From: a virus
Length of the DNA: 45,321 nucleotides
Direction: 5' to 3' (one strand)
IMG/VR virus record: IMGVR_UViG_3300030385_000846
Location: 4,744 to 50,064 of that record
Part shown: piece by piece, positions 13,217-28,167 of the stretch
How positions within the stretch are numbered: the first letter of the stretch is position 1
How the letters are laid out: the number at the start of each line of letters is the position of its first letter
Position numbers and translations under genes: made by a program
The notes under the pieces: generated by a model
Databases searched by the model: none
What the model was told of the DNA's origin: nothing
What the model saw: the letters and a program-made list of their open reading frames with translations, nothing else

Positions 13217-13950
13217 GCTATCAATTATTGTCTGAGCCGAAAGCTAATCCTAAAGTAGCTAAAGGTGAGAGATTATATAGCGATTATTTAACAGGCATAC
13301 AGCATCTATTACCTAGCAATTTATCAGGTTATAATGTTTGTCCCTATGCCAAGATTGCCCAATGTGAGATTGGATGTTTAAACACGGCAGGACGTGGTGG
13401 TATCGTGAAGCATGGTGAGACGACTAACAACATACAGCGCGCCAGATTGCGCAGAACATTGTTATTTGCAGAAGATAAAGAGAGATACTTCGAGACATTA
13501 ATCGCAGATATAACACGCTTAGAGAAGTATGCCAAACGTAGGAACAAAACGTTATGCATACGTTTAAACGGTACCTCAGACATTCAATGGGAACACCAGC
13601 GATATAATGGTAAAACAATATTTGAGATGTTCCCGCACGTTATTTTCTACGACTATACAAAAATACCTACGCGTAGCGTAGAGCATATCCCGAACTATCA
13701 CCTTACTTGGAGCTACTCTGGAGCTAATAAAGCTTATGCTAATCTATTTGATAGCGTCATGCAGAATCCTAATTACAACGGTATAGCTGTCGTGTTTCGC
13801 ACTAGTAAACTTCCGCTAACATTCAATGGTGTTCGCGTAATTGATGGCGATAAGTACGACATGAGATTCAAAGACCCGAAGAATGTTATTGTAGGTTTAA
13901 AAGCTAAAGGTAAGGCCAAGCATGATTACTCCGGTTTTGTAGTGGATTAG
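13213..13950 (+). CDS. GP88-like protein
   Basis: A 245-residue protein matching the GP88 family of phage and plasmid proteins. The hallmark is a Cys cluster: C-P-Y-A near residue 45, then CEIGCLNTAGRGG near 55-67. RTLLFAEDKERYFETLI, RLNGTSDIQWE and FYDYTKIP follow, then a VVFRTSKLPLTFNGVRVIDGD block. The spaced Cys residues may hold a metal or iron-sulfur centre; no activity is established to my knowledge. Start overlaps the previous stop as ATGA. Two GTTTAAAC octamers lie inside the gene. Confidence 0.8.
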   Translation: MSYQLLSEPKANPKVAKGERLYSDYLTGIQHLLPSNLSGYNVCPYAKIAQCEIGCLNTAGRGGIVKHGETTNNIQRARLRRTLLFAEDKERYFETLIADITRLEKYAKRRNKTLCIRLNGTSDIQWEHQRYNGKTIFEMFPHVIFYDYTKIPTRSVEHIPNYHLTWSYSGANKAYANLFDSVMQNPNYNGIAVVFRTSKLPLTFNGVRVIDGDKYDMRFKDPKNVIVGLKAKGKAKHDYSGFVVD

Positions 13951-14023
13951 ATATAGCTAAAAGTTATAAGCTTATATCAAAAAGTTATTGGATATTTTTT
14001 ATTTTTTTTAGTAAAGTAGACAG

Positions 14024-14057
14024 ACTTAGACGAGAGAGGAACTTAGACGAGAGAGGA
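14024..14057 (+). repeat. 17-bp perfect tandem repeat
   Basis: ACTTAGACGAGAGAGGA occurs at 14024-14040 and again at 14041-14057, followed by further purine-rich GAGAGA. It forms the leader of the 54-aa gene. AGAGAGGA in each copy resembles a ribosome-binding sequence. Possibly a slippage duplication or a translational enhancer. Confidence 0.8.
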
Positions 14058-14076
14058 CAAAGAGAGAGAACATACA

Positions 14077-14241
14077 ATGTCACATTCAGATATGGATATT
14101 ACACGAGAGAACATCAGGCAAGAAGGCATAGGTGTTGGCGAGTCAAGAGGACTAACGGGCCAAGCCCTAGAAGATTTTGCAGACAAGTACCTTGAGGAAG
14201 CTTGGGAACAGATGCCAGATTTTTCCATATACAAGGATTAA
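14077..14241 (+). CDS. Small acidic hypothetical protein (54 aa)
   Basis: Starts MSHSDMDITRENIRQEG. Contains an acidic helical C-terminus (QALEDFADKYLEEAWEQM). The ITRENI-x-x-x-G segment recurs near the C-terminus of the 71-aa gene at 14536 (ITRENISHQG), hinting at a shared small motif. No known domain. Sits behind the 17-bp tandem repeat. Confidence 0.55.
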   Translation: MSHSDMDITRENIRQEGIGVGESRGLTGQALEDFADKYLEEAWEQMPDFSIYKD

Positions 14242-20032: not shown

Positions 20033-21760
20033 GTGGAAACTGCTTTGGATAACAGATTTTTATACACACATTTAAAGTGTCCTTCTTGTGAACATAATGG
20101 ATGTCTTTCTATAAATTCAGATTGGTCCTCGTATTGTTTTTCTTGTAAAAAATATACAAACGATATAAAGGAATCTTATGAGGGAGAAATTGATGAACTA
20201 TTAAAGACATCCACTAAGGATGAGGGCAGTAGCAAAACAGATGTTCAATATTCTGATGATTCAGAAATCGCAGGAATTTATGGCGCGTTAACTGATCGAG
20301 GAATTTCAGAAGCAACTGCCAAGAAGTATGGAGTTAGAATAAGAACAAATTCTCAAGGCAAAGTTATACAACATGCATACCCTTATTTTACTTCTAATGA
20401 GATTACAGCAGTTAAGACACGGCACGTTGATCAAAAGATATTTTCGTGGAAAGGAACCCCATCTAATACAGGTCTTTTTGGAGAGCATATTGCTCCAAAG
20501 AAGGGCAAGTTTCTTACTCTTGTTGAGGGAGAATGTGATGCGCTGGCTGGATATGAGCTTCTGGGTAGCAAGTGGCCTGTAGTATCTATCAAGAATGGGG
20601 CATCAGCAGCCGTCAAAGATGTAAAAGAAAGTTTAGAATTCTTGGAAGGCTTTGATAGTATAGTTATTGCTTTTGACAATGATAAACCAGGACGGGCAGC
20701 AGCCAGAAAAGTTGCGAGGATACTCAAACCAGGAACTGCTAGAATTTTAACTCTCCCAAATGGATTTAAAGACCCAAATGAAATGCTTAGGAAACATGCA
20801 CATGCAGCGTTTGTCAAGGCGTTTTGGGAAGCAAAAATTTATACGCCTTCCGGTGTTTTAAATGTTTCGGAAAATAAGGATAAATTTAGAAACAGAAAAA
20901 AGAAAGCATCTGTTCCCTATCCTTGGCAGGGATTAAATGATAAGCTTTATGGGCTACGCGCTGGAGAACTTGTTACTTTAACAGGAGGGACAGGGCTTGG
21001 TAAGTCTAGTGTTACAAGGGAACTTGAGCATTGGTTAATTAAAACAACTTCAGACAATGTTGGCATTATATCTTTAGAAGAAGATTGGCGCAGGACGGTT
21101 GATGGAATCATATCTATTGAAGCGAATGCCAGAATGTACATTGATCAAGTTAGGGACAAATTTACAACAGAAGAAATTGATAAACTCTTTGATATTTTAT
21201 ATGATGGAGACAACAAGAATAGGGTATGGATTCATGCTCACTTTGGTACAAATGATATAGAAGAAATTTTTTCCAAGCTACGGTTTATGATAGTAGGTTG
21301 CGAATGTCGTTGGATTGTTATAGATCATCTGCATATGTTAGTATCTTCTATTGCTGAAGGGGATGAACGTAGAGCTATAGATAATATAATGACTCGCTTG
21401 CGTTCTTTAGTAGAAGAAACTGGTGCTGGTATTGTACTGGTTTCTCATCTACGGCGAATCGTAGGTAACAAAGGGCATGAGAATGGAGTAGAAACTTCAT
21501 TGAGCCACTTACGAGGTTCTCAAAGTATTGCCCAATTATCTGATTGTGTTATTTCCCTAGAAAGAAACCAACAAAGCAGTGATCCAGTTGAAGCTAACAC
21601 TACCAGAGTCAGGGTTTTAAAAAGTAGATATACAGGAGATGTTGGAGTAGCTTCTCATTTGGTGTACGATAAAAATACTGGTAGATTAAGCGAATTGGAT
21701 ACTGATGATATTACAATTACATCAGAAAACGAGGAAGAAATTTGCACGATCTTTGGCTAA
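20033..21760 (+). CDS. Bifunctional DNA primase-helicase (T7 gp4-like)
   Basis: About 575 residues. Unwinds DNA and makes primers. An N-terminal zinc ribbon CPSC...CFSC (about 15-42), a Toprim primase core with LVEGECDA (about 162) and AFDND (about 212), a linker, and a RecA-like DnaB-type helicase with Walker A GGTGLGKS (about 318-325) and Walker B WIVIDHLH (about 426). VSHLRR and LRGSQSIAQLSD follow as in gp4. I chose the GTG at 20033, six bases after GGAG; GTG at 20030 and TTG at 20021 are also in frame. Length matches T7 gp4 (566 aa). Confidence 0.93.
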   Translation: METALDNRFLYTHLKCPSCEHNGCLSINSDWSSYCFSCKKYTNDIKESYEGEIDELLKTSTKDEGSSKTDVQYSDDSEIAGIYGALTDRGISEATAKKYGVRIRTNSQGKVIQHAYPYFTSNEITAVKTRHVDQKIFSWKGTPSNTGLFGEHIAPKKGKFLTLVEGECDALAGYELLGSKWPVVSIKNGASAAVKDVKESLEFLEGFDSIVIAFDNDKPGRAAARKVARILKPGTARILTLPNGFKDPNEMLRKHAHAAFVKAFWEAKIYTPSGVLNVSENKDKFRNRKKKASVPYPWQGLNDKLYGLRAGELVTLTGGTGLGKSSVTRELEHWLIKTTSDNVGIISLEEDWRRTVDGIISIEANARMYIDQVRDKFTTEEIDKLFDILYDGDNKNRVWIHAHFGTNDIEEIFSKLRFMIVGCECRWIVIDHLHMLVSSIAEGDERRAIDNIMTRLRSLVEETGAGIVLVSHLRRIVGNKGHENGVETSLSHLRGSQSIAQLSDCVISLERNQQSSDPVEANTTRVRVLKSRYTGDVGVASHLVYDKNTGRLSELDTDDITITSENEEEICTIFG

Positions 21761-21782
21761 TGTTGGGATGTTTAAACATATT

Positions 21783-23546
21783 ATGAAACGACTTATATTT
21801 GACATAGAAACAAACTCATTAAACCCATCTAAAATTTGGTGCGTGGTTGCAAAAGATATTGACAACGGGCAACTGTACACCTATGGGCCAGATCAAATTC
21901 TGGAAGGATGTGATCTTTTAGAACAAAGTAACTATCTCGTGGGCCATAATATTTCAGGGTTTGATATTCCAGTGATTGAAAGATTAACAGGAAGACAAGT
22001 AGCTAATGGCGATACTAAAGTAGTGGATACTTTGGTATTATCCAGACTTTTTAATCCTACCAGAAGTGGACCCAATGCTCATGCGCTGGCTACATGGGGT
22101 GCGCCTTCACGATTAAACTTCCCTAAGATATCATTTGATGATTATGAGAATTATTCTTTGGAAATGTTGGAGTACTGTATAAGGGACGTTGAACTTAATC
22201 TAGCTGTATTTAAATATTTACAGCAAGAAGGAAAAGGATTCTCTAAAAAGTCTGTTGTTTTAGAGCATGAGGTTTCCAGAATTCTGGATAAGCAGAGGGA
22301 GGATGGGTTTCTTTTAGACCAACAGAAAGCAGATATTCTTTCTGCTGAACTCAGGGAACGACAGGCAGAAATTGAAGAAGAAGTACGGAAAATATTCAAG
22401 CCTAAGATTGAAGAGATAGTTTTAATTCCCAAGCGTAAAAAAGATGGCGTGATTAGCAGGGTTGCTAAAGGAGGAAGACTTACTAATGCTGAATATGATG
22501 AAGCTGTTTCCAGAAATACTTTGGAACCTATAAAAAGGTACAAAACTATAGAGTTTAATTTAGGTTCTAGGTTACAGATAGGAGAATACTTACAAGGGTT
22601 TGGTTGGAAGCCGAAGAAATTCACAGAACATGGTAGACCAATTGTAGATGAGAGAGTTCTTATAGGAGTGAAGGGGATACCAGAAGCTTCTTTAATCGCT
22701 GAATATCTGCTGGTTCAGAAAAGAATTGCTCAAGTAGCTTCTTGGATTGAAGCTGTGGATGAGGACGATAGCAGAGTACATGGGTTTATTAAAAGTACAG
22801 GAGCTATCACTGGTAGAATGACACACATGAAACCTAACATGGCACAGGTTCCTAATATGAACTCGCCGTATGGTAAAGAATGTCGAGAATGCTGGTCTTC
22901 TGAAGAAGGATATAAATTGGTGGGCATAGACGCAAGCGGATTGGAATTGCGTATGCTTGCTCATTACATGAAAGATGAGGATTACATACATGAAATCATT
23001 AATGGAGATATACACACCTCTAATCAAAAATTTGCAGGACTTAAATCAAGAGATCAGGCTAAAACATTCATCTATGCCCTCATATACGGTGCAGGAGATG
23101 GAAAACTTGGTTCTGTGGTTGGAGGAAGTAGAGAAGATGGGAAAAGACTTAGAAGAAATTTTCTCGCTAGTCTTCCATCATTTACAACTCTCAAAAATCG
23201 TGTGTCAGCAGCGGCTCAAAGAGGCTACCTCAAGGGATTAGATGGGAGAAAGATACTTATTCGTAGTGACCATGCTGCACTGAATACATTATTACAAAGT
23301 GCTGGAGCAATCTCCATGAAGGAAGCTCTGGTTAAGTTTGATAAGATCATTAAGGAAAAGAACTACGATGCTAAGTTTGTTGCTAATGTCCATGATGAAT
23401 GGCAACTGGAAGTAAGAGAAGACCAAGCAGATGATGTTGGAAGATGGGGAGTTGAGTGCATTCGTAATGCAGGAAAAGCTTTCCAACTTTTATGTCCTCT
23501 CGATGGTGAATATAAAATAGGAGACAATTGGAGTGAAACACACTAA
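21783..23546 (+). CDS. DNA polymerase, family A (T7 gp5-like)
   Basis: About 587 residues. Proofreading exonuclease: FDIETN (Exo I, residues 5-10) and VGHNISGFD (Exo II, about 54-62). Polymerase: motif A VGIDASGLELR (about 380), motif B RDQAKTFIYALIYGAG (about 427) and motif C VHDEW (about 536). The position equal to E. coli Phe762 is Tyr (KTFIY), as in T7, a residue common in lytic marine phages. I start at the ATG at 21783, six bases past GTTTAAAC; an in-frame ATG at 21768 would add MFKHI. Smaller than T7 gp5 (704 aa); no clear thioredoxin-binding insert was seen. Confidence 0.93.
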   Translation: MKRLIFDIETNSLNPSKIWCVVAKDIDNGQLYTYGPDQILEGCDLLEQSNYLVGHNISGFDIPVIERLTGRQVANGDTKVVDTLVLSRLFNPTRSGPNAHALATWGAPSRLNFPKISFDDYENYSLEMLEYCIRDVELNLAVFKYLQQEGKGFSKKSVVLEHEVSRILDKQREDGFLLDQQKADILSAELRERQAEIEEEVRKIFKPKIEEIVLIPKRKKDGVISRVAKGGRLTNAEYDEAVSRNTLEPIKRYKTIEFNLGSRLQIGEYLQGFGWKPKKFTEHGRPIVDERVLIGVKGIPEASLIAEYLLVQKRIAQVASWIEAVDEDDSRVHGFIKSTGAITGRMTHMKPNMAQVPNMNSPYGKECRECWSSEEGYKLVGIDASGLELRMLAHYMKDEDYIHEIINGDIHTSNQKFAGLKSRDQAKTFIYALIYGAGDGKLGSVVGGSREDGKRLRRNFLASLPSFTTLKNRVSAAAQRGYLKGLDGRKILIRSDHAALNTLLQSAGAISMKEALVKFDKIIKEKNYDAKFVANVHDEWQLEVREDQADDVGRWGVECIRNAGKAFQLLCPLDGEYKIGDNWSETH

Positions 23547-24099
23547 AGTAAAAAATAAAAAATTTGAAGATGGAGAGTGGTGGTACTATGGGCAAGCAGA
23601 TGGAAGACGTAGAGTAGCTGCTCATGTAAAAAAGAACGAAACACGCATGTTTCTTAATGGAAAATATATTCCAAAAACACATCCTTTACATAAGTCTGGA
23701 CGTTATAAAACTTTTGAAGCTGCCGCCTTTTCTTCTCTTTCTCAGTATGAAACAACGACTGAGGGTTATGTTTATCTTATATCTAATCCAGCTTGGAAAG
23801 GATGGATCAAGGTTGGCATGGCTATTGATGCTGAAGACAGGTGTACTCAGTACCAAACCAGTAGTCCTCACAGGGATTATAAATTAGAATATAAAAAATA
23901 TTTTAAAGATAGAAAAGAGTCTGAATTTGAAGCTCATGCTATCTTGAAAAAACATACGAAAAATCATGTGGGGGAATGGTTTAAAGTTTCTTTGAAAAAA
24001 GTTAAACAGGTATTGGAAAACATTGATAGTCTTTCTTCTATTCAACCTCAACCTATTATACACGAGGAACATTATGTCCAAAAAATACTCGACTTCTAA
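23533..24099 (+). CDS. T5orf172 (GIY-YIG superfamily) nuclease-like protein
   Basis: A 188-residue protein starting at GTG, overlapping the polymerase end. The C-terminal half from about residue 77 (GYVYLISN, then WIKVGMAIDAEDRCTQYQTSS) is the T5orf172 pattern, a GIY-YIG relative in which YVYL and the Arg of the R...Y...S/T helix are catalytic-type. The front half has a WYYGQADGRRRVAAHV segment and an NGKYIPKTHPLH segment, perhaps DNA binding. It might be a free-standing homing-type nuclease between replication genes or a phage DNA-processing enzyme. Confidence 0.75.
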   Translation: MKHTKVKNKKFEDGEWWYYGQADGRRRVAAHVKKNETRMFLNGKYIPKTHPLHKSGRYKTFEAAAFSSLSQYETTTEGYVYLISNPAWKGWIKVGMAIDAEDRCTQYQTSSPHRDYKLEYKKYFKDRKESEFEAHAILKKHTKNHVGEWFKVSLKKVKQVLENIDSLSSIQPQPIIHEEHYVQKILDF

Positions 24100-24970: not shown

Positions 24971-25274
24971 AAGAATTACTCGTCACATGAAGACACTTCT
25001 TATCGAATGGATAAAGACATTGTTGCCAGAGGAAGAAGCTGCTAAGGTTTCGCTACAAAACATACAACATTTAATGCCAAGAGAGCAGCACTATTTTGCA
25101 GACAACAGAATTTATTTAAATTCTTATTCTCCCAAATGGATTAAAAACGGAATTAAAAGAATACTTAAACAATATCCTGATACGGAAATTGAAATGATAA
25201 CAATGGAAAAAATATTATGGACGATGAAACAGAAGTCAAGATACCAGAAGATCCCTCCTTACAAAGCATTGTAA
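24951..25274 (+). CDS. Conserved phage protein (107 aa)
   Basis: Starts at GTG (MNARKSKRITRHMKTLLIEW), overlapping the exonuclease end by 20 bases; an ATG at 24987 is a lesser option. The body EEEAAKVSLQNIQHLMPREQHYFADNR is recognisable from other T7-like marine phages. Basic and helical; function unknown. Confidence 0.6.
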   Translation: MNARKSKRITRHMKTLLIEWIKTLLPEEEAAKVSLQNIQHLMPREQHYFADNRIYLNSYSPKWIKNGIKRILKQYPDTEIEMITMEKILWTMKQKSRYQKIPPYKAL

Positions 25275-25396
25275 TTGCTTTAGCAGGGTTCTTGATGTCT
25301 GGAGGGAAGCTGACTGCTTTATCAGACGAGGTTTTATTTGATCTTGATAAAGCAGTTTCAATAGAGTTAAAAGACAGACAAGGACATATCCATTAA
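25217..25396 (+). CDS. Small hypothetical protein (59 aa)
   Basis: Starts MDDETEVKIPEDPSLQSIVI inside the end of the previous gene. Contains a short hydrophobic helix (IVIALAGFLM) and a C-terminal LSDEVLFDLDKAVSIELKDR. Its stop lies within the first codons of endonuclease I, which has no normal start. The two could be joined by a +1 frameshift at CAT-TAA. Confidence 0.5.
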   Translation: MDDETEVKIPEDPSLQSIVIALAGFLMSGGKLTALSDEVLFDLDKAVSIELKDRQGHIH

Positions 25397-25793
25397 AAGA
25401 AAACCAAGAAAAATAAGACCTCAATACGATTCCAGATGGGAAGCTAGTCTGCATGAGGATCTTTTAAAATCCTGGCAACATCATGGGGATAAGGTTCATT
25501 ACATTATTGAACATAATTACGAGCCTGACTTTATCAAGTCATTTGATAACGAGACAATACTACTAGAAGCAAAGGGAAGGTTTTGGGATTTTGCAGAATA
25601 CAGTAAGTACAAGTGGATACAGAAGGCGTTACCGGAAAACACTGAACTAGTATTCTTGTTCTCTAATTCTAATGCTCCTATGCCTCAAGCCAAGCGCCGT
25701 AAGGATGGGACTAAACGAAGCCATGCTGAATGGGCAGAGACTAATGGGTTCCGGTGGTTTACCGAACAAACATTACCAAAAGAATGGAGATGA
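25392..25793 (+). CDS. Endonuclease I, Holliday junction resolvase (T7 gp3-like), non-standard start
   Basis: About 133 residues. Resolves branched DNA and helps break down host DNA. SRWEASLHEDLLKSW, then NYEPDF, then LLEAKGRFWD and YSKYKWI correspond to the gp3 catalytic set (E, D, E-x-K); the tail with FRWFTEQTLPKEW also matches gp3. In frame, the last stop upstream is TAA at 25368-25370 and no ATG, GTG or TTG occurs before the catalytic core. I suggest ATT at 25392, seven bases after AAGGA; ATA at 25386 is an alternative, as is a +1 frameshift from the preceding ORF at its stop codon. A base-level error is also possible. Confidence 0.82.
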   Translation: MKRKPRKIRPQYDSRWEASLHEDLLKSWQHHGDKVHYIIEHNYEPDFIKSFDNETILLEAKGRFWDFAEYSKYKWIQKALPENTELVFLFSNSNAPMPQAKRRKDGTKRSHAEWAETNGFRWFTEQTLPKEWR

Positions 25794-26122: not shown

Positions 26123-26270
26123 ATGGGATAGAAAAGTTGAAAGAAGGGTGGGATTTTTGAGAAGAAAAAAAGCAAAACAAAGTTCTAAAAACAAGAGACT
26201 AAACAGGCAGAAGAAAGACGAATCGAAATACAAAGATGTGCTAAATTTAGAAGAAGAAGATGAACATTGA
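26115..26270 (+). CDS. Small basic protein (51 aa)
   Basis: ATG overlaps the DUF3310 stop. MVEWDRKVERRVGFLRRKKAK is followed by Lys/Arg-rich repeats and an acidic LEEEDEH end. Its last 11 bases overlap the reductase start. No function recognised. Confidence 0.5.
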   Translation: MVEWDRKVERRVGFLRRKKAKQSSKNKRLNRQKKDESKYKDVLNLEEEDEH

Positions 26271-28167
26271 GTTGCCTACTAATTACCAGCAGTTTATACA
26301 CTTGAGCCGCTATGCCAGATGGAACGAAGAGAAAGGAAGAAGAGAAACATGGGATGAAACGGTTGGCAGATATTTTAACTTCTTTGAAAAGCATTTAAAA
26401 GAAAACCATAGTATCCCTATAAAAAATATACGGACTACTTTAGAAGAAGCTGTCCTTAATCTGGACATTATGCCAAGCATGAGGTCTTTAATGTCAGCAG
26501 GGAAGGCCCTTGAACGTGACCATGTAGCAGGATTCAACTGTAGTTATGTAGCTGTAGATTCACCAAGGGCTTTTGATGAGGCTCTTTATATACTCATGTG
26601 TGGCACTGGCGTTGGATTCAGCGTTGAAAGACAGTACGTTAATAAACTTCCTGATTTACCAGAAGAACTATTTGATACAGATACAATTATAAAAGTAGCT
26701 GATTCTAAAATAGGTTGGGCAAAAGCATACAAAGAACTTCTTTCATTGCTTTACTCAGGGCAAATACCTAAATGGGACGTATCCAATGTTCGCCCTCATG
26801 GAGCCAGATTAAAAACTTTCGGAGGACGAGCCAGCGGTCCCGCCCCTTTAGAAGACTTGTTCAGATTTACAATTAATCTTTTTAAAGATGCCATTTTTAT
26901 AGGGCATCGTAAACTGGTTTCTATTGCTTGTCACGATTTGATGTGTAAAGTAGCAGAAGTTGTGGTTGTTGGCGGTGTAAGAAGGTCTGCACTCATATCC
27001 TTGTCCAACCTCTCAGATGAGCGTATGAGAAACGCTAAGAGTGGTGCATGGTGGGAAGACAACCAGCAACGAGCTTTATCGAATAATTCAGTAGCTTATA
27101 CAGGTTCAATAGAGATGGGCGCATTTATAAAAGAATGGGTATCTCTTTATGAAAGTAAAAGTGGGGAGAGGGGGATCTTCAATAGGCAAGCAGCAGAGAA
27201 ACAAGCTGCCAGAAACGGCAGGAGAGAAGAGTATAAAGATTTTGGAACTAACCCCTGTAGTGAGATTATTCTACGCAACAAGCAGTTCTGTAATTTAACA
27301 GAAGTTGTTGTCAGAGAGAACGATACTTTTGAAACTCTTAGTAACAAGATAAAGCTGGCTACTATTCTTGGTACATTTCAAGCTACGCTCACAAACTTCA
27401 GATACTTGAGCAAGGCTTGGCACAACAATACAAAGGAAGAAGCTTTGCTTGGTGTGTCCCTTACTGGAATACTGGACAATAAAAACATGGTTAATGGTAA
27501 TATAAAAATTGATCAGTTAAAGGATGTTGCCGTATCTGAAAATAAAACATGGGCTAAAAAATTAGGCATTAATCAGGCGGTAGCTATAACTTGTGTTAAA
27601 CCAAGCGGCACTGTAAGTCAATTAGTTAATAGCTCATCAGGGATACACACAAGGCATAGTCCTTATTATTTAAGGACGATCAGGGCTGACAAGAAAGACC
27701 CTTTAGCACAGCTTATGGTGGATGAAGGAGTGTACCATGAAGACGATACAACGAAACCAGACCATACCCTTGTATTTTATTTTCCTATTAAGGCTCCTAA
27801 AAATGCAATTACAAGGGAACATTTATCAGCTATCGAACACTTGGAACTTTGGAAAACATATCAAAATAAGTGGTGCGAACATAAACCTTCTGTAACTATA
27901 TCAGTTAAAGAAGATGAATGGTTGGAAGTAGGGGCATGGGTTTATAAGAATTTTGAAGAGGTATCGGGAATTTCATTTCTTCCTTATGCAGACCATTCAT
28001 ATAAACAAGCACCTTACCAGGAGATAACATATCAAGAATATAAAGAGTGGTTAAAGAAGACTACTACTTTTGTTGATTGGTCTTTGTTACCTAACTATGA
28101 GACAGAAGATATGACAGAGAACACGAAAGAGCTTGCTTGTTCTGTAGGGACATGTGAAATAATATAG
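26260..28167 (+). CDS. Adenosylcobalamin-dependent (class II) ribonucleotide reductase
   Basis: A 635-residue monomeric-type enzyme reducing ribonucleoside triphosphates to deoxy forms for phage DNA synthesis, needing vitamin B12 coenzyme. Landmarks: MPSMRSLMSAGKAL, NCSYVAVD, CGTGVGFS, GGRASGP, HDLMC, VVVGGVRRSALISL, the active-site NPCSEI near residue 330 with a CNL following, KPSGTVSQL, and a C-terminal redox pair CSVGTC (about 628-633). This pattern fits the Lactobacillus-type (RTPR) branch. Slightly shorter than cellular relatives (about 740 aa). The host must make or import cobalamin, which is taken up through TonB-dependent receptors in many Gram-negatives. Confidence 0.92.
   Translation: MNIELPTNYQQFIHLSRYARWNEEKGRRETWDETVGRYFNFFEKHLKENHSIPIKNIRTTLEEAVLNLDIMPSMRSLMSAGKALERDHVAGFNCSYVAVDSPRAFDEALYILMCGTGVGFSVERQYVNKLPDLPEELFDTDTIIKVADSKIGWAKAYKELLSLLYSGQIPKWDVSNVRPHGARLKTFGGRASGPAPLEDLFRFTINLFKDAIFIGHRKLVSIACHDLMCKVAEVVVVGGVRRSALISLSNLSDERMRNAKSGAWWEDNQQRALSNNSVAYTGSIEMGAFIKEWVSLYESKSGERGIFNRQAAEKQAARNGRREEYKDFGTNPCSEIILRNKQFCNLTEVVVRENDTFETLSNKIKLATILGTFQATLTNFRYLSKAWHNNTKEEALLGVSLTGILDNKNMVNGNIKIDQLKDVAVSENKTWAKKLGINQAVAITCVKPSGTVSQLVNSSSGIHTRHSPYYLRTIRADKKDPLAQLMVDEGVYHEDDTTKPDHTLVFYFPIKAPKNAITREHLSAIEHLELWKTYQNKWCEHKPSVTISVKEDEWLEVGAWVYKNFEEVSGISFLPYADHSYKQAPYQEITYQEYKEWLKKTTTFVDWSLLPNYETEDMTENTKELACSVGTCEII

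Follow-up and report, generated by a model that had tools for sequence, protein, structure and literature searches.

A proposed ATT start codon for endonuclease I in an environmental phage, and the recurrence of ATT and ATC first codons in its gene family

The endonuclease I gene and its start region in the window

The window, i.e. the whole 45,321-nucleotide stretch of viral DNA analysed here, carries a gene for an endonuclease I whose reading frame contains no ATG, GTG or TTG ahead of the catalytic residues. The features of the gene and of its junction with the preceding open reading frame (ORF) are the following, all on the plus strand.

25217..25396, +: upstream 59-aa ORF, the 3' end of which carries the Shine-Dalgarno (SD) sequence and the overlapping start; homologues occupy the corresponding position in the clade of close relatives
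25368..25370, +: in-frame TAA closing the endonuclease frame upstream, read from the sequence
25380..25384, +: Shine-Dalgarno sequence AAGGA, 7 nt before ATT, read from the sequence and kept in the clade
25392..25394, +: proposed start codon ATT, conserved in the distinct close relatives and in the more distant relative L108, with ATT/ATC or ATG at the homologous position in sister lineages
25392..25396, +: ATTAA stop/start overlap, in which the ATT start and the upstream TAA share one T; ATTAA or ATTAG occurs in 19 of 23 dereplicated ATT-start loci
25392..25793, +: coding sequence of endonuclease I (T7 gp3-like, PD-(D/E)XK Holliday-junction resolvase family), assigned from Pfam, PHROG and catalytic-type residues

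The open endonuclease frame extends from 25371 to the TGA at 25791-25793, and reading from ATT 25392 gives a protein of 133 aa. This protein matches the Pfam family Phage_endo_I (PF05367) with 33.3 bits against a cut-off of 29.1 and the endonuclease family PHROG 945 with 3e-33, and its residues E17, D46, E59 and K61 (E...D...ExK) are invariant in an alignment of eight diverse members, including those of the NATL1A-7 cyanophage and HMO-2011. By profile and catalytic-residue criteria the gene classifies as endonuclease I, with cleavage of branched DNA as its putative activity, and the whole gp3-like catalytic domain described in an earlier note on this DNA is indeed present. A sequence search of the PDB with the endonuclease gave no homologue. 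The identity to homologues from cultured phages is 30-56%, and the source phage is uncultured and probably marine.

The upstream stop, the absence of a standard start before the core, the AAGGA and the CAT TAA terminus of the 59-aa ORF had all been pointed out in the earlier note, and were recovered at the same positions. Exactly seven bases (25385-25391) separate AAGGA from ATT, and the earliest canonical start in the endonuclease frame is a TTG at 25656, 3' of the catalytic residues. Searches of Pfam and PHROG with the upstream 59-aa ORF gave no family match, and RNA folding around the start indicated an unstructured region (z between -0.5 and +1.9).

Among the window ORFs of at least 100 codons the endonuclease alone has no canonical start close to its 5' end. 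The ORF at 13926-14195 had been considered as a second startless gene, and was rejected as spurious, since an ordinary ATG-initiated ORF occupies the same positions in a different frame. The neighbouring genes include a DNA polymerase at 21705-23546 (nearest Pelagibacter phage HTVC115P, 52%) and a B12-type ribonucleotide reductase at 26260-28167 (nearest phage HMO-2011, 64%), so that these two genes appear to have mixed affinities. A T5orf172/MUG113 (GIY-YIG-like) ORF with a GTG start is located at 23533-24099, between the DNA polymerase and a Cas4-like exonuclease.

Searches of viral contigs resulted in six further distinct sequences with 80-94% amino acid identity to the window endonuclease. 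ATT is kept in all six as well as in L108 (66% identity), which is the conservation that the earlier note had named as favouring a rare ATT start. All clade members carry the SD as AAGG or AGGG(G) with the same spacing as in the window, 7 nt to ATT (5-8 depending on the SD alignment), and the SD duplex energy at ATT is about -5 to -8 kcal/mol. The overlap of ATT with an upstream TAA or TAG is likewise retained in all six close relatives, and L108, reading AAAAGGAGTCTTTCATTAAAAG at the junction, has the same design. An upstream ORF of 58-61 aa was found in every close relative; its protein has strongly diverged within the clade, but it retains (Q/K)G..H at the C-terminus, where it overlies the SD. 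In L124 an in-frame TGA is placed one codon ahead of ATT (TGA TCC ATT), and only TCC ATT precedes the core. Initiation of translation of the window endonuclease I at ATT 25392 is strongly supported by these sequence comparisons.

ATT and ATC first codons across the endonuclease I family

Start regions were read out for 196 distinct loci at first and for 252 later, and loci were assigned an Ile start by the homologous position of the first codon. Removing upstream regions more than 90% identical reduced the 58 Ile-start loci to 32. ATT is the first codon in 38 loci (23 after dereplication) and ATC in 20 (9 after dereplication), while ATA occurs in 0 of the 58, whereas within the core of these Ile-start genes it is the commonest Ile codon, with 90 out of 195 (Fisher 2e-8, uncorrected for relatedness). 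One clade of 70 rows has ATT 30 times, ATC 21 times, ATG 9 times and ATA 0 times at the homologous first codon. The loci with ATG in this column are L261, L267, L269-L272, L280, L285 and L286, and their proteins are near-identical to those of Ile-start sisters; thus L268 reads CCC ATT AGC ACC AAG where L269 reads CTG ATG AGT ACT AAA. That sister genes have ATG at the same codon argues most strongly for the Ile codon as the start.

The Ile codon lies at or near the best SD register in most of the representatives without a canonical start, and in some of these the SD is strong: AGGAGG 5 nt before ATC in L193 (TAG GAG GCT GAC ATC GCT ACA), GGTGA 3 nt before ATT in L244 (TGA GTC ATT AAG) and L289 (TGA CTC ATT AAA), and AAGGAGG 5 nt before ATT. 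An in-frame stop is found at most 12 codons upstream in 26 of the 32 representatives and exactly one codon before the Ile codon in five; further start regions read TGA GGC ATT AGC (L276) and TAG CAA AGC ATC AGT (L253). ATC starts precede the stop of the upstream gene by 8-22 nt. Not every locus is as clear: one Ile-start group (L155/L156/L167/L203/L204) has a weak SD, and L246, L231, L273 and L108 have an upstream in-frame GTG, TTG or ATG as a possible alternative start. L198 lacks both a canonical start and a well-placed Ile codon; a strong SD (AAGGAGTCTCAAAAGAAAACCC) is located about 90 bases before its core, and the start would there have to be CTC or AAA.

Across the relatives the homologous first codon is ATT, ATC, ATG, GTG or TTG. 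The L020 group, which adjoins the window clade in the tree, has TTG, GTG or ATG starts, mostly directly after an in-frame TAA. The distribution of the Ile-start rows in the tree requires a minimum of about 11 changes, at least 3 of which are forced by well-supported branches; these counts of gain and loss are approximate, because some calls first taken as canonical starts proved, once the codons were read out, to be incidental upstream GTG, TTG or ATG codons. As judged from the sequences, Ile start codons appear to have been gained or lost several times, and ATT/ATC starts to characterise whole lineages of this phage nuclease family. The TTG-start relatives L149, L150, L187 and L171 read CATTGAAAAG, with the TTG overlapping a TGA stop, and positions 25391-25400 of the window (CATTAAAAG) equal this sequence minus a G, which suggests that loss of a single base could turn a TTG start into an ATT start and the stop into TAA.

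The restriction to the endonuclease gene also holds outside the window. Within the first 45 codons 24 of 181 endonuclease ORFs have no canonical start, as against 3 of 745 other ORFs of at least 110 codons in the same loci, all three of the latter lying on the opposite strand and being apparently spurious. The cultured relatives examined start endonuclease I with ATG or TTG, and none of the cultured phages examined had an Ile start. A search of the open literature gave no direct report of ATT or ATC starts in phage endonuclease I. An ATT-start endonuclease I is also carried by a 44.8-kb contig in a Sphingobacteriales metagenome-assembled genome (MAG) (L452, JAAXIF010000071.1), which is probably a phage contig, possibly misbinned.

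Alternative readings of the junction

The earlier note had placed three options side by side, a rare start, a frameshift and a sequence error; the first of these is supported, the frameshift is disfavoured and the sequence error rejected, and the recurrence of ATT and ATC throughout the family was not part of it. The frameshift option implies a programmed +1 shift of the release-factor-2 (RF2) type where the 59-aa ORF ends in CAT-TAA, producing a fusion of this ORF with the endonuclease. The endonuclease frame is indeed +1 relative to the 59-aa ORF, CAT followed by TAA or TAG is conserved in the window clade and in L108, and the SD-like AAGGA precedes CAT-TAA. However, although the relation is constantly +1 inside the window clade, the 32 dereplicated Ile-start loci divide into 23 in which the endonuclease is +1 to the upstream ORF and 9 in which it is -1, so that one frameshift mechanism cannot serve all of them. 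The upstream protein family is not the same across the Ile-start lineages, the last upstream codon varies among the ATTAR lineages (CAT, GAT, AAT or TAT), and in L173 and its relatives the upstream ORF terminates one base short of ATT. In the RF2 site the SD lies 3 nt before CUU and the P-site tRNA must re-pair in the +1 frame, whereas in the window the distance from AAGGA to CAT is 6 nt, and tRNA-His (anticodon GUG) on CAU has no possibility of re-pairing on AUU. The RNA folding mentioned above, with its z values between -0.5 and +1.9, found no stimulatory structure at the junction, and the ATG at the homologous codon in sister genes also speaks against a shift. On these sequence grounds frameshifting at the window junction is unlikely.

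Less probable still is initiation at another non-standard codon. ATA 25386, ATA 25413 and CTG 25449 are all in frame and near-cognate, but L004, L005 and L007 lack ATA 25386 and a stop cuts it off in L124, ATA 25413 shows no conservation (KIR/KAR), and CTG 25449 is 3' of the catalytic E17. That the gene is a decaying pseudogene which has lost its start would agree with the lack of a canonical start codon, but is hard to reconcile with a core of 91% mean column identity among the clade members, invariant catalytic residues, an intact frame in all members and the conservation of the SD and the ATT themselves; we regard it as very improbable. A sequencing or assembly error hiding a normal start, for which a single indel in this metagenomic assembly would suffice, can be practically discounted, because ATT, spacing and overlap recur in relatives, on independent contigs that come from different metagenomes and differ by many substitutions, and the ATT also in the related L452 contig, which was assembled outside IMG/VR.

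A weak start as possible dosage control

AUU and AUC starts are textbook rarities known from very few characterised genes, among them an internal start in T4 gene 26 and the start of E. coli pcnB. Both resemble the window endonuclease in the proposed use of AUU, and T4 is itself a phage; in T4 gene 26, however, the AUU is internal, gives a shorter product and is found in a single phage, whereas here it would be the only start of the gene and occurs in many phage lineages. T7 endonuclease I (gene 3, PF05367) shares with the window gene its domain, its catalytic residues and its position near DNA polymerase and exonuclease genes, but for T7, as for the cultured relatives examined, the start is ATG or TTG, unlike the ATT of the window.

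The closest parallel in the start itself is infC, which begins with ATT in E. coli and with ATC in Streptomyces, and non-canonical starts of this kind are repressed by IF3 (PMC5472188). Like the endonuclease of the window, infC has an SD-supported AUU or AUC start whose codon is conserved across relatives; it differs in encoding IF3 and regulating its own expression, while the endonuclease is a phage nuclease with an ATTAA or ATTAG overlap in most ATT loci. In Streptomyces sigR an IF3-repressed GTC start has been proven experimentally to limit dosage (PMC5472188). The endonuclease may resemble sigR as a dosage-critical gene of a compact operon, its level limited by a non-canonical start, although sigR is a cellular regulator, starts with GTC rather than ATT and has been demonstrated by experiment. 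Taken together, the start in the window appears to be a rare codon with a known precedent in infC, but in a new setting, recurring across lineages and linked to a stop/start overlap.

The explanation that we prefer as a whole, with a probability of roughly 0.87, is an intact endonuclease I translated from an SD-selected AUU start at 25392, coupled to the upstream stop and kept at low dosage. The AAGGA 7 nt upstream would select AUU 25392, which the initiator tRNA would read as fMet, and at the AUUAA overlap ribosomes finishing the 59-aa ORF would be delivered to the endonuclease start. Because host IF3 is proposed to discriminate against AUU and AUC initiation, the level of the endonuclease would be kept very low. 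In this way the level of a toxic nuclease acting on branched DNA is probably kept down by the weak start, through IF3 and termination coupling, and low dosage may be the reason for its selection. Besides the weak SD of one group, the possible alternative starts, L198 and the lack of Ile starts in the cultured phages examined, one more feature counts against this explanation: the base 5' of ATT is a C in every member of the window clade (CATTA), which the initiation model does not require.

A more far-reaching version, which we put forward only tentatively and rather doubt, would see a dedicated weak-start switch in this arrangement, with AUU placed on the upstream stop (AUUAA/AUUAG) or AUC inside the upstream gene. 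Synthesis would then need both termination-reinitiation and IF3 activity, the nuclease would appear late or in trace amounts, and the switch would have evolved repeatedly as a means of limiting the dosage of toxic phage nucleases in general.

The findings would place AUU and AUC starts in many environmental lineages of a single phage enzyme family, and the exchange of ATT or ATC with ATG at one homologous codon offers a natural experiment on the keeping of a start that IF3 rejects. The ATTAA or ATTAG overlap is likewise a junction suited to testing the stringency of reinitiation. Gene finders limited to ATG, GTG and TTG will drop or truncate the endonuclease I gene, which is therefore probably under-reported in viromes.

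Two further candidates were considered as Ile-start cases and rejected. In the Bruynoghevirus endonucleases the start is a TTG that lies within a long stretch shared with the upstream gene, and for this reason many Pseudomonas phage records split endonuclease I or leave it without annotation (phiIBB-PAA2, L138, 1498-1890). The unannotated endonuclease I of cyanophage P-SSP10 (L367, 774-1121) has an ATG start and is missing from the annotation of the RefSeq record.
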